Below are positions 5,090 through 45,602 of a stretch of DNA of 50,790 bases, piece after piece; positions within the stretch are counted from its first letter, which is position 1; every line of letters starts with the position of its first letter. The notes beneath the pieces were generated by a model, which worked only from the letters and a program-made list of their open reading frames with translations, made no database searches and was not told the DNA's origin. Where the stretch lies: NCBI GenBank assembly GCA_001778695.1, contig MFHU01000017.1, positions 21,214-72,003 of the forward strand. Direction: 5' to 3'. This stretch comes from Candidatus Giovannonibacteria bacterium RIFCSPHIGHO2_12_FULL_44_22. Its GTDB lineage: Bacteria; Patescibacteriota; Minisyncoccia; UBA11713; 2-01-FULL-45-33. A program made the translations under genes and the position numbers.

Positions 5090-5668
5090 TTAGTTGCGCC
5101 GGCTATCCAGGAACCCATTAATCTGGCCATGAATGCTTAGCGCACCCAAAAACAAAGCTGCTATCAGAACTATTTCCGATATAAGGTGCCAGCCACCGAA
5201 GATAGGAATAAGTGCCATTGACTGAACGACCATTTTAATTTTGCCGTATAAGTTCGCGCGCGCATCATACTTGAGTGCAAATCCGGCAAAGCGCATCACG
5301 ACGGACAAAAGTTCACCACCAAGAATTGCACCAACCAGTAATGGCAATTGAGCATAAAGCTCGAAACCAAAAACGGTCAGAATTATTAACTTATCAGCGA
5401 TGGGATCGATATTTGCTCCGCAAGCTGATTCTTGTTTTCGCTCTCGGGCTAACGGGCCATCAAACAAATCACTCATTACCGCAAAACATACAAGAAGAGG
5501 TATTAGTCTTGGAGCGAGTCCCGTAACGTATAAATACCAGACGCACGAGGCGACTAGAATCCTAAGATAAGTTATATGATTCGCAGTCACCCAGGAGGGG
5601 AGAAAGCGAACCAGTTCACGAAGATAGGACTCTTTAAGCGCCCACCCATAGTTAAAAAGTGCTTCCAT
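5090..5668 (-). CDS. pgsA: CDP-alcohol phosphatidyltransferase family protein
   Basis: Signature D-x2-DG-x2-AR-x8-G-x3-D-x3-D: DLFDGPLARERKQESACGANIDPIADK. Confidence 0.85.
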   Translation of the reverse strand: MEALFNYGWALKESYLRELVRFLPSWVTANHITYLRILVASCVWYLYVTGLAPRLIPLLVCFAVMSDLFDGPLARERKQESACGANIDPIADKLIILTVFGFELYAQLPLLVGAILGGELLSVVMRFAGFALKYDARANLYGKIKMVVQSMALIPIFGGWHLISEIVLIAALFLGALSIHGQINGFLDSRRN

Positions 5669-7468: not shown

Positions 7469-7498
7469 AATTTTCTCTTTTGTCCCGTTCATTCATAA

Positions 7499-7538
<40 letters not shown>

Positions 7539-8271
7539 GATAAGGCATGCAAGTCAAACGGAACTTATTTTGAAGGAGTTGCGATTACATCAAGACAACG
7601 GATTCATAGGTTTAGTGGCAGACGGGGTAGTAACACGTAGGAACATCCCCCAGAGACGGGTATAACTAGCCGAAAGGTTAGCTAATCCCCGATAGTCTCG
7701 TAAGAGTAAATCACTTAGATTGGCTCTGGGAATGGCCTGCGGGATATCAGCTTGTTGGCGAGGTAATTGCTCACCAAGGCTATGACGTCTAGGGGGCGTG
7801 AGAGCGCGACCCCCACCAATGGAACTGAGACACGGTCCATACACCTACGGGTGGCTGCAGTCAAGAACATTTGTCAATGGGCGAAAGCCTGAACAAGCGA
7901 CGCCGCGTGCGGGATGAAGCTCTTCGGAGTGTAAACCGCTTTTATAGGGGAGGAACTAAAGTGACGTTACCCTATGAATAAGGCCTTGCTAACCTCGTGC
8001 CAGCAGCCGCGGTAATACGAGGAGGCCAAGCGTTATCCGGATTTATTGGGCGTAAAGGGTGTGTAGGGGGCATGGTTAGTCTCCGCTTAAATTTTCGGGC
8101 TCAACCCGGAATCCGGCGGAGAAACGGCCAAGCTAAGAGGGTGCCAGAGGCAAATGGAACTCATGGTGTAGGGGTGAAATCCGTTGATATCATGGGGAAC
8201 ACCAAAGGCGAAGGCAATTTGCTGGGGCATTCCTGACCCTGAAACACGAAAGCGTGGGGATCAAAAAGGAT

Positions 8272-9052
8272 CGAAAAGTTCCGTTTACAAGGCGGACTGG
8301 TCCAATTGTGAAGTAATTCGCAATATAAAAACTTGGCTATATCGGGGAACATCTCGCGAAGCGAGACAATCCCGAGGGAAGTTGTGTGTTCAAATTTCTG
8401 GAAAAAGAAAAAGGCGCAGCTGTGCCGAGCCTTGGGAAATCACTGATCGATCTAAGTCATCGCTTGGTAGTAGACTCAAGCTTAGCGCATGCCAGAGCTG
8501 TTAGAAAACAGCCTAGTAGCAGCATCGCAAGAGTTGCGAGGGGTCCATACGCGAGGACGGGCTTACTTAGAGCGGTCAAAAGTGTTATTAGAACTCCAAT
8601 TATAACCATGGTTCACCTCCGATGCAAGAATACCATGATGGGATTAGAATGTCAAGAAAATTGACTCCAGAAATTTGAACATACAACCCCGTAGAGACTA
8701 TACGCCGAGCTCCTGATTAATTTCAGGATGATGATATAGTCCGAACTCTGCAGCGATGCAGAGAAGCAGATAGAAATATTCTGCTCACTCAAGAATGAAA
8801 ATCGGTGCTAATTTTTGGAAAAAGAAAGGCCACCACTATTAAGTGATGGCGTTCGCAAGACGAGAGATCAGATTCGAACTGACATCTAGCAGGGGGTACC
8901 CCGTCGCCTTACCGTTAGACCACTCCCGACTTGCATAAAAAGATTAGCACTAAATACAGTCTATTGTCAATAGACTCCAAAAATTAGCACCGATTACAGA
9001 ATTTCTTGAGGTCCGCCGTCGCTAAAGCTATGGCGGACACAGTAACAAAATG
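8272..9052 (+). mobile_element. Group I intron in 16S (between GGAT and TAGATACCC, E. coli about 788), no HEG recognised
   Basis: P7-forming R GACTATA (8696-8702) and S GATATAGTCC (8733-8742); core-like CGGGGAACATC...GACAATCCCGAGGGAAG; last base G. Confidence 0.85.
8859..8929 (-). tRNA. tRNA-like sequence with degenerate anticodon arm, antisense inside the group I intron
   Basis: TCGGGAG/CTCTCGT acceptor (6 of 7 pairs), D arm GTCTAACGGTAAGGC, T arm GTCAG-TTCGAAT-CTGAT; anticodon stem poorly paired, anticodon uncertain. Confidence 0.4.
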
Positions 9053-9655
9053 TAGATACCCTTGTAGTCCACGCCCTAAACGTTGATGACTAGGCATCCG
9101 AAGTATCGACCCTTCGGGAGCCGCAAGCTAACGCGTTAAGTCATCCGCCTGGGAAGTACGATCGCAAGATTAAAACTCAAAGGAATAGACGGGGACTCGC
9201 ACAAGCGGTGGAGCATGTGGTTCAATTCGATGGTAAACGAAAAACCTTACCAGGGCTTGAAATGGTTTTGACATTCCAGCGAAAGCTGGACTTCTCACAA
9301 GGACAAAATCACAGGTGCTGCATGGCTGTCGTCAGTTCGTGGCTTGAGTTGTTCCCTTAAGTGGGGTAACGAACGCAACCCCTATCGTGTGTTACAAGTG
9401 TCACGCGAGACTGCCCCGCTCAGCGGGGAGGAAGGCGGGGATGACGCCAAGTCAGCATGGCCCTCTGATGCCCTGGGCTACACACGTGCTACAATGCCGG
9501 TTACAATGGGTCGCGATGCCGTAAGGCGAAGCAAATCCCATCAAAAGCCGGCCCAGTTCAGATTGAGGTCTGCAATTCGACCTCATGAAGTCGGAATCGC
9601 TAGTAATCGCAGGTCAGCTATACTGCGGTGAATACGTTCTCGAGTCTTGTACTCA

Positions 9656-10514
9656 AAATTAAAAGCGCCCGGCAGCTTATATTTCTAGGCCGTTAAAATC
9701 GGTCCCTCCGATTAAAATCGGAGCGTAGCAAACGGATAAGTCCTTGGCCGCGAGGTTGTGGACTGAAGGATCCTATTAGCAAAAAGCAGCCTTATTAGTC
9801 CCCGGCTTGAGTCGGGGAAAGGCCGCGCGACCCATTCGGTGAGTAATGGGGAAGCGCCAAGAAAAGCTTAATGAGGATGTTTGGAAAAGAAATACAAGTG
9901 ACCCGCGGGAGATCTCATAACGCCACTGGAATTATTGCGTTTTGAGAAGTCAGCTGAATCATAGTACTGTGCGTCAACTTATTTTTATGTTAAAATAGGC
10001 GCATGGGAAGGATGAAACCGACGGTTGCAAAAGAATATATTGTTGGGCTTACTGATGGAGAAGGATGTTTCTATGTAAACATATGGAAATCTTCTTTATA
10101 TCGAGCAGGGTTCGGTGTTCAAATGCATTTTCATATAAAGATGCAGGAGAAAGACAGGATGTTGCTCGAAAAAGTGCGAAATACATTAAAGTGCGGCGCA
10201 GTTTATTTTCAAAAAGAACAGCGCCGAAACCACGTTCAATGTTATCGCTATACCGTCAGTGCGCAGCGGGATATCTTCAATACGATAATTCCATTCTTTC
10301 AGCAAAATTCTTTGGAGAGCGCAACAAAGCGCAAAAGTTTTAAGATCTTTTGCCGAATTGCTAATTTGCTTCAAGCAAAAGCGCATTTAACCAAAAGAGG
10401 TTTAAAACGAATATGGAAGCTAAAAAAGCTTATGAATCAAAGAACCGTCGGGCTCGCGTAGTGCGGGAAATCCGCCCGCTACGTGGGAACGCGAAGCATT
10501 CTAACTATCGCAAT
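9656..10514 (+). mobile_element. Second 16S intervening sequence (between CTTGTACTCA and CCGCCCGTC), intron class undetermined
   Basis: Interrupts the universally conserved CTTGTACxCACCGCCCGTC; carries a LAGLIDADG ORF. Confidence 0.85.
10003..10461 (+). CDS. LAGLIDADG family homing endonuclease
   Basis: EYIVGLTDGEGCFYVN motif; within the 16S intervening sequence. Confidence 0.85.
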   Translation: MGRMKPTVAKEYIVGLTDGEGCFYVNIWKSSLYRAGFGVQMHFHIKMQEKDRMLLEKVRNTLKCGAVYFQKEQRRNHVQCYRYTVSAQRDIFNTIIPFFQQNSLESATKRKSFKIFCRIANLLQAKAHLTKRGLKRIWKLKKLMNQRTVGLA

Positions 10515-10760
10515 CCGCCCGTCAACTCAAGGGAGCCGGGAGTAGATGAAGCCAGCGATTTTCGCTGATTAGTCTAAGCTCGGTGACAGGGAGTAAGTCG
10601 TAACAAGGCACGGCTAGCGGAAGCTGGTCGTGGAGTTTAATTTTTAATTTTTGTGATAAACAAAAGTTAATGTGTCGATTATGCCGTTTCGGCATAGGGT
10701 ATTGGTCCCGCAACCCTAATGCGGGACTGGGACAAAAGAAAAAGTGCTTTAACAAAATCA

Positions 10761-45091: not shown

Positions 45092-45245
45092 AGGTATTAG
45101 TATACTATATATAAAAAAATGAAGAGTGTGCATAGCGTGATGCAAAACTATTGAACCATGACGCGGTCTAGATATTTTTAGAAACATATGTTAAACTTAT
45201 ATTAGAAAAATTGAGATTGAAACCCAAAAAGAGGAGGTGAGTTTA

Positions 45246-45602
45246 ATGCGCGATTATAAAGATGCGGAAAATGCATTCATTTTTCTGGCTTGCAATGGAC
45301 TGCGATTAAGGCTGCTTAATTTTCAATATGAAGCATACCGTTGCGATCAAAAATTTTCCGACCAGAAATGGATTACTGAAAATTTCGGCAAAGATTCACG
45401 GATTTTTACGCTCATGTGCCAATTTAAATGGTTTGAGCTTTTCTCAAATGAAGAGTGGCTAGATCTCCTCAAAATTGCTGAAAAATTTAATGAACTTTTA
45501 GATAGGAGTCTCGCCAAGCATATTGAAATCATCGCAAAATATTTTCCAACCGAAGTGCTGGAAGTTCCGGGCTTTCGTCCGCCAATAGGATTTATGCATT
45601 AA
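45246..45602 (+). CDS. Hypothetical protein
   Basis: SD GAGGAGGTGA upstream of ATG 45246. Confidence 0.6.
   Translation: MRDYKDAENAFIFLACNGLRLRLLNFQYEAYRCDQKFSDQKWITENFGKDSRIFTLMCQFKWFELFSNEEWLDLLKIAEKFNELLDRSLAKHIEIIAKYFPTEVLEVPGFRPPIGFMH

Follow-up and report, generated by a model that had tools for sequence, protein, structure and literature searches.

The 16S rRNA gene and its 3′ end

The window, i.e., the whole 50,790-nt stretch of DNA that was analyzed, lies on contig C17 of a Candidatus Giovannonibacteria genome (G000; 643 kb in 17 contigs, with an estimated completeness of 100% and an estimated contamination of 4.9%). It carries a 16S rRNA gene (RF00177 in Rfam, 1178 bits; start at 7493) that two insertions split into three exons (Table 1), and a whole-genome search recovered this as the sole 16S rRNA gene in the 643 kb, which are complete by estimate. 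Insertion 1 contains a group I-like intron (8300–8763; RF00028, 42.9 bits, E 5e-9, under the gathering score), and insertion 2 lies at the site designated 16IS9 (PMC11270868). As group I-like and LAGLIDADG insertions in a 16S gene, the second at a known site, they resemble the CPR rRNA insertion sequences described in that study; however, the 3′ tail of the gene is untouched by them, and the missing anti-Shine-Dalgarno (anti-SD) sequence described below is not accounted for. Insertion 1 also holds, on the opposite strand, a tRNA-like sequence (8859–8929; 31.6 bits, above the family cut-off when scanned alone) to which ARAGORN assigned no anticodon, and which lies between the two arms of a perfect 20-nt inverted repeat, AATCGGTGCTAATTTTTGGA (8800–8819 and 8976–8995; the whole element, 8800–8995, on the − strand).

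Table 1. Features of the window discussed in the text
Feature	Position	Strand	Basis or remark
Lineage-specific CDP-alcohol phosphatidyltransferase gene, strong SD (AGAAAGGAGGG)	5090..5668	−	
5′ leader arm of the pre-16S processing stem (TTCTCTTTTGTCCC)	7473..7486	+	Duplex with 10729–10743
16S exon 1	7493..8271	+	RF00177; boundary from alignment with intron-less relatives and GGAT/TAGATACCC
16S insertion 1, about position 788	8272..9052	+	
16S exon 2	9053..9655	+	RF00177; alignment with intron-less relatives
16S insertion 2, about position 1400	9656..10514	+	Weak group II-like match, RF01998, E 0.019
LAGLIDADG_1 homing endonuclease ORF within insertion 2	10003..10461	+	PF00961, E 4.5e-21
16S exon 3, including helix 45 (10610–10631) and GGA	10515..10634	+	Sequence; alignment with relatives
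U-rich tail GTTTAATTTTTAATTTTT, replacing TCACCTCC (lost anti-SD)	10635..10652	+	Sequence; relatives' tails
Predicted hairpin, 11 bp, starting 9 nt past GGA	10644..10670	+	Same helix predicted in congeners L073, L074 and L070
3′ trailer arm of the pre-16S processing stem (GGGACAAAAGAAAAA)	10729..10743	+	Motif after every family-1 16S examined
Lineage-specific gene, SD AAAGAGGAGGTGAG	45237..45602	+	Among the SD sites of the first-pass annotation

The first-pass annotation had claimed that the anti-SD is missing from the 3′ end of this gene, and both its letters and its coordinates proved correct. Helix 45 is recognizable and intact (ACGGCTAGC at 10610–10618, GGAA at 10619–10622, GCTGGTCGT at 10623–10631), and GGA follows it. 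The 3′ end of the gene reads GTCGTAACAAGGCACGGCTAGCGGAAGCTGGTCGTGGA and then GTTTAATTTTTAATTTTT, a U-rich stretch in the place of the expected TCACCTCC. CCTCC is absent from 10634 through the processing stem and the terminator, as had been stated; between 7400 and 11400 it occurs three times, at about 8616, 9705 and 11137. The leader–trailer stem also stands as described, with one mismatch and a duplex energy of −23.9 kcal/mol, and it recurs without a mismatch in a genome from another genus of the same family (G005). We infer the mature 16S 3′ end, like the transcript starts considered below, from such sequence signals.

Relatives share this arrangement. The 18-letter tail is identical in two genomes of the same genus (G001 and G002) and closely similar in G004 and G007, and in G005 the anti-SD is also lost, with a different sequence in its place. 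Downstream of the tail, the hairpin, a GTCGAT motif, a second hairpin and GGGACAAAAGAAAAAGTG are largely common to relatives. The tail pattern was also found in LCKG01000005.1 (Parcubacteria group bacterium GW2011_GWC1_45_13), JAUYMO010000001.1 and MFIM01000009.1 (both Candidatus Giovannonibacteria) and JAUSHV010000048.1, which are apparently contigs of the same four genomes (G001, G002, G004 and G007) and not extra cases.

An assembly error, a bin mix-up or a third intron hiding a TCACCTCC exon downstream would each mimic such a loss; the gene already has two insertions, and two other bins (G100 and G207, with 16S tails of other families) look mixed. Yet the congeners' separate assemblies have the same tail, hairpin and processing stem, free of gaps, many genes of the window's contig are held in common with G001, and TCACCTCC was not found downstream of the 16S gene on the + strand of the window. 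Because identical or near-identical tails occur in other assemblies, assembly error and chance are excluded, and because the tail and most of the sequence after it are common to relatives, there is no room for a third intron; taken together, we regard an artefact of these kinds as very improbable. That the anti-SD comes from elsewhere, either from TTCACCTCC, a 9-mer that does occur in insertion 1 (at about 8612), or from an unassembled 16S gene, is barely credible: chance alone would put about one such 8-mer into a window this large, the insertions of the relatives checked do not contain TTCACCTCC, and the genome, estimated to be complete, has one 16S gene. The insertion-1 TTCACCTCC is not conserved and was taken as a chance occurrence. 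Of the checks and refuting results that the first-pass annotation had named, those concerning a second 16S copy, the 3′ ends of sister genomes and a third intron all came out in favor of its claim: the absence of the anti-SD is real, and its interpretation as a loss from the 16S rRNA is supported.

Distribution of the anti-SD in the class and phylum

We searched 387 genomes of the class and found 16S ends in 267; the 168 tails that we classed were taken from among the matches listed for these 267 and from further relatives' loci, and they represent 68 families in what is not a complete sample. In this set, 77 tails have an intact TCACCTCC, 8 have a partial one (CTCC) and 83 have lost it, and by family, 41 of the 68 are wholly lost and 18 wholly intact. 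Outside the class, the tails among the matches listed for the phylum carry CCTCC, except for 13 variants that are mostly 1–2 bases off, and none of these listed tails has a U-rich replacement. Two of the 16S contigs encountered, G100:C19 with a family-1 tail and G207:C15 with a family-72 tail, carry the tails of other families and are probably mis-binned rRNA contigs.

In a 16S tree of 30 sequences, the lineage of the window falls within an 11-tip clade (support 100/99) whose members are all anti-SD-less. Parsimony requires 4 changes of anti-SD state on this tree (bootstrap range 3–6). The anti-SD was lost at least once in the class and probably several times; with just one change of state demanded by the well-supported branches, repeated loss is a likely reading and not a proven one.

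SD motifs, leaderless signals and their possible readings

Having established the state of the 16S tail, we evaluated SD use with a simple gene caller (start at the first ATG), scoring SD 4-mers and duplex energy against control windows; these measures replaced an earlier metric of exact 5–6-mers that was too insensitive on the E. coli control. With the same script, SD 4-mers precede 43–50% of E. coli K-12 genes versus 3–6% of control windows. The conserved genes of G000 show 7.8% versus 9.0% in the control, and three anti-SD-intact relatives are likewise near background (17.4 versus 14.4%, 8.4 versus 9.2% and 11.8 versus 7.6%). Neglect of the SD in this class extends beyond the loss of the anti-SD and was probably earlier; SD pairing was probably given up first and the anti-SD decayed afterwards. 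The GTPase Era binds GAUCACCUCC (PMC10582724), and no match to Era above the cut-off was found in 57 relatives; its absence from the relatives searched therefore removes another known constraint on the sequence.

The genome as a whole is nonetheless rich in strong SD motifs (AAGGAG 21 times versus 1.3 expected, AGGAGG 22 times versus 2.3 expected), and their placement is not random. Lineage-specific genes, defined as those without a match in the relatives compared (partial genomes) and including some with relatives outside that set, carry an SD in 24 of 146 cases versus 10 of 422 for conserved genes (p = 2e-8), and pooling five genomes of the family gives 56 of 321 versus 23 of 810 (p = 4e-16). 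By the more sensitive measures, SD 4-mers precede 22.6% of the lineage-specific genes of G000 (control 8.2%), and duplexes with dG ≤ −8 are found before 23% of lineage-specific genes (control 3%). The SD sites that the first-pass annotation had reported before several genes are real, with the refinement that they mark mainly lineage-specific genes, the conserved genes having none above background.

Several SD genes belong to short insertions, one to a few genes long, that interrupt runs of syntenic conserved genes; at these sites, G001 has either nothing or other unmatched genes, some of them with an SD of their own. Pfam searches of ten SD genes identified a dCTP deaminase, a CDP-alcohol phosphatidyltransferase and an inositol monophosphatase family protein, with no match over the cut-off for the other seven. 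Contamination of the bin was rejected as the source of the enrichment, given that SD genes share contigs with conserved genes and several lie between syntenic ones; a phage origin was also set aside, the dCTP deaminase having, among the matches listed, distant phage relatives only (28–35% identity). We consider the SD motifs upstream of lineage-specific genes to be, most likely, remnants of recent horizontal acquisition from SD-using donors. Their GC3 (0.464, versus 0.455 for the host) is near that of the host and does not point to a foreign origin. Among 292 G000/G001 gene pairs, an SD is present in only 5 and 6 genes, respectively, and in both members of 2 pairs, too few for a selection test.

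The sequence upstream of the genes also offers other signals. TATAAT-like boxes, often as extended −10 elements, peak exactly 12 nt before the ATG (61 of 568 G000 genes versus about 4 per position). A −10 box between −13 and −11 is found in 14.6% of G000 genes and in 22.5, 8.7 and 15.0% of genes in three anti-SD-less genomes from other families, compared to a background of 2–4%, while three anti-SD-intact genomes, a small sample with one GC-rich member, show 1.5, 4.5 and 5.3%. These box positions predict leaderless transcripts, whose first nucleotide would fall on the ATG or directly beside it. The other G000 leaders are A-rich, and from these patterns we infer that initiation would occur mainly on leaderless mRNAs and A-rich leaders.

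Such leaders raise the possibility that the U-rich tail is a changed anti-SD that pairs with them. The tail is complementary to AAAAATTAAAAATTAAAC, and there is a gain in pairing energy at the SD position; this gain is small, at −0.26 kcal/mol, whereas the E. coli control, with the canonical tail, reaches about −3 kcal/mol, and other genomes or other U-rich tails yield similarly small gains, with no match between tail and genome. Complementarity of the leaders to the new tail does not go beyond the control, and we rejected an altered SD:anti-SD pair of this kind as improbable. It is unlikely, too, that the SDs before lineage-specific genes still work without a 16S anti-SD, e.g., via bS21, an S1-like protein or some other RNA. 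In favor of it, these SDs are strong and their spacing is good, and the GC3 of their genes is close to the host's; against this, conserved genes make no use of the motif, and several SD genes lie in insertions missing from the congener, as would relics. Ribosomal protein bS21 adjoins the SD:anti-SD helix, and its retention in G000 (G000:C3:71002-71154, 34.5 bits, above the cut-off) favors working SDs and counts against an explanation by SD-free initiation; an S1-domain protein is also encoded, far under the rpsA cut-off. We know of no protein that reads GGAGG independently of the 16S anti-SD, and we hold it quite unlikely that a ribosomal protein or a further RNA reads the SDs on newly acquired genes, independently of 16S pairing.

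Apart from the SD genes, about ten copies of an intergenic element of about 50–120 nt with terminal inverted repeats, CCAGGTAGTGAAA...TTTCTACTACCTGG, are spread, outside the window, over G000 contigs C3, C4, C5, C9 and C11. Many copies end directly ahead of a conserved gene's ATG; the element was not found at the G001 orthologues checked, and it looks like a miniature mobile element.

Loss of the anti-SD in the context of known systems

Our preferred reading, to which we assign a probability of roughly 80%, is that the anti-SD has truly been lost, that the ribosome initiates without SD pairing and that the remaining SDs are relics. The conserved genes of the class would have ceased SD pairing, and with Era, the binder of GAUCACCUCC, missing from the relatives searched, little would have held the anti-SD sequence in place, so that its loss could leave the U-rich tail now common to the genus. 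Initiation would then rely mainly on leaderless mRNAs and A-rich leaders, and SD-bearing genes would have arrived recently from SD-using donors, their motifs persisting as relics.

This state has precedents. Non-anti-SD bacteria include Hodgkinia, Carsonella, Flavobacteria and haemotropic Mycoplasma (Lim, Furuta and Kobayashi 2012, PMC3522020; Amin et al. 2018, PMC6107228), in which loss of the anti-SD was described as always (PMC3522020) or almost always (PMC6107228) accompanied by loss of the SD. As in those bacteria, G000 has no CCUCC after an intact helix 45 and no second 16S gene, its change is common to close relatives, its conserved genes lack SDs, and its leaders are A-rich as in Flavobacteria. 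It differs in belonging to another phylum, with the loss extending across much of a large class, and in retaining strong SDs before a non-random set of genes, which makes G000 a partial exception to the published coupling. In Bacteroidota, the anti-SD is kept and sequestered by bS21, bS18 and bS6 (PMC6847099, PMC9976891). G000 is similar in that most of its genes do not use the SD and bS21 is present; however, the anti-SD itself is gone, and sequestration of the Bacteroidota type was rejected for G000, where CCUCC is missing from the 16S tail despite the presence of bS21. By analogy, the anti-SD-intact relatives within the class may be closer to the Bacteroidota state.

Wolfebacteria and Campbellbacteria belong to the Parcubacteria. 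In the section consulted here, a 2024 paper names Candidatus Wolfebacteria, Campbellbacteria and SR1 as organisms in which SDs are scarce and CCUCC is missing (its category iv; PMC10783764), so that the anti-SD-less state is already known from single genomes in Parcubacteria. The same section covers 1–2 genomes for each lineage and includes neither Giovannonibacteria nor a class-wide count, an analysis of promoter position or a split between conserved and lineage-specific genes. Nanoarchaeia, as presented there, likewise combine leaderless mRNAs with loss of a conserved CCUCC, whereas our case is bacterial and its leaderless starts are predicted from promoter position alone. In the literature searched, we found no report of a class-wide spread or of SDs kept before lineage-specific genes, which is not proof of absence; the class-wide extent and the SD pattern are apparently new.

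The CCUCC tail is often regarded as universal among bacteria. With about half of the sampled tails in a very large class lacking it, the class offers a natural experiment on SD-free translation start, and tools for gene finding or 16S annotation may fail there if they depend on the SD or the anti-SD. SDs may mark genes recently arrived from SD-using donors and are a possible marker of them. The class also allows study of the order in which the parts are lost and of other constraints on the tail. The position once occupied by the anti-SD seems, in several families that lack it, to form one arm of a small hairpin (UUCA/UGAA, UUCC/GGAA, UCUCUU/AAGAGA) that resembles the CUCC/GGAG hairpin of intact precursors, and the pairing may persist as the sequence changes.
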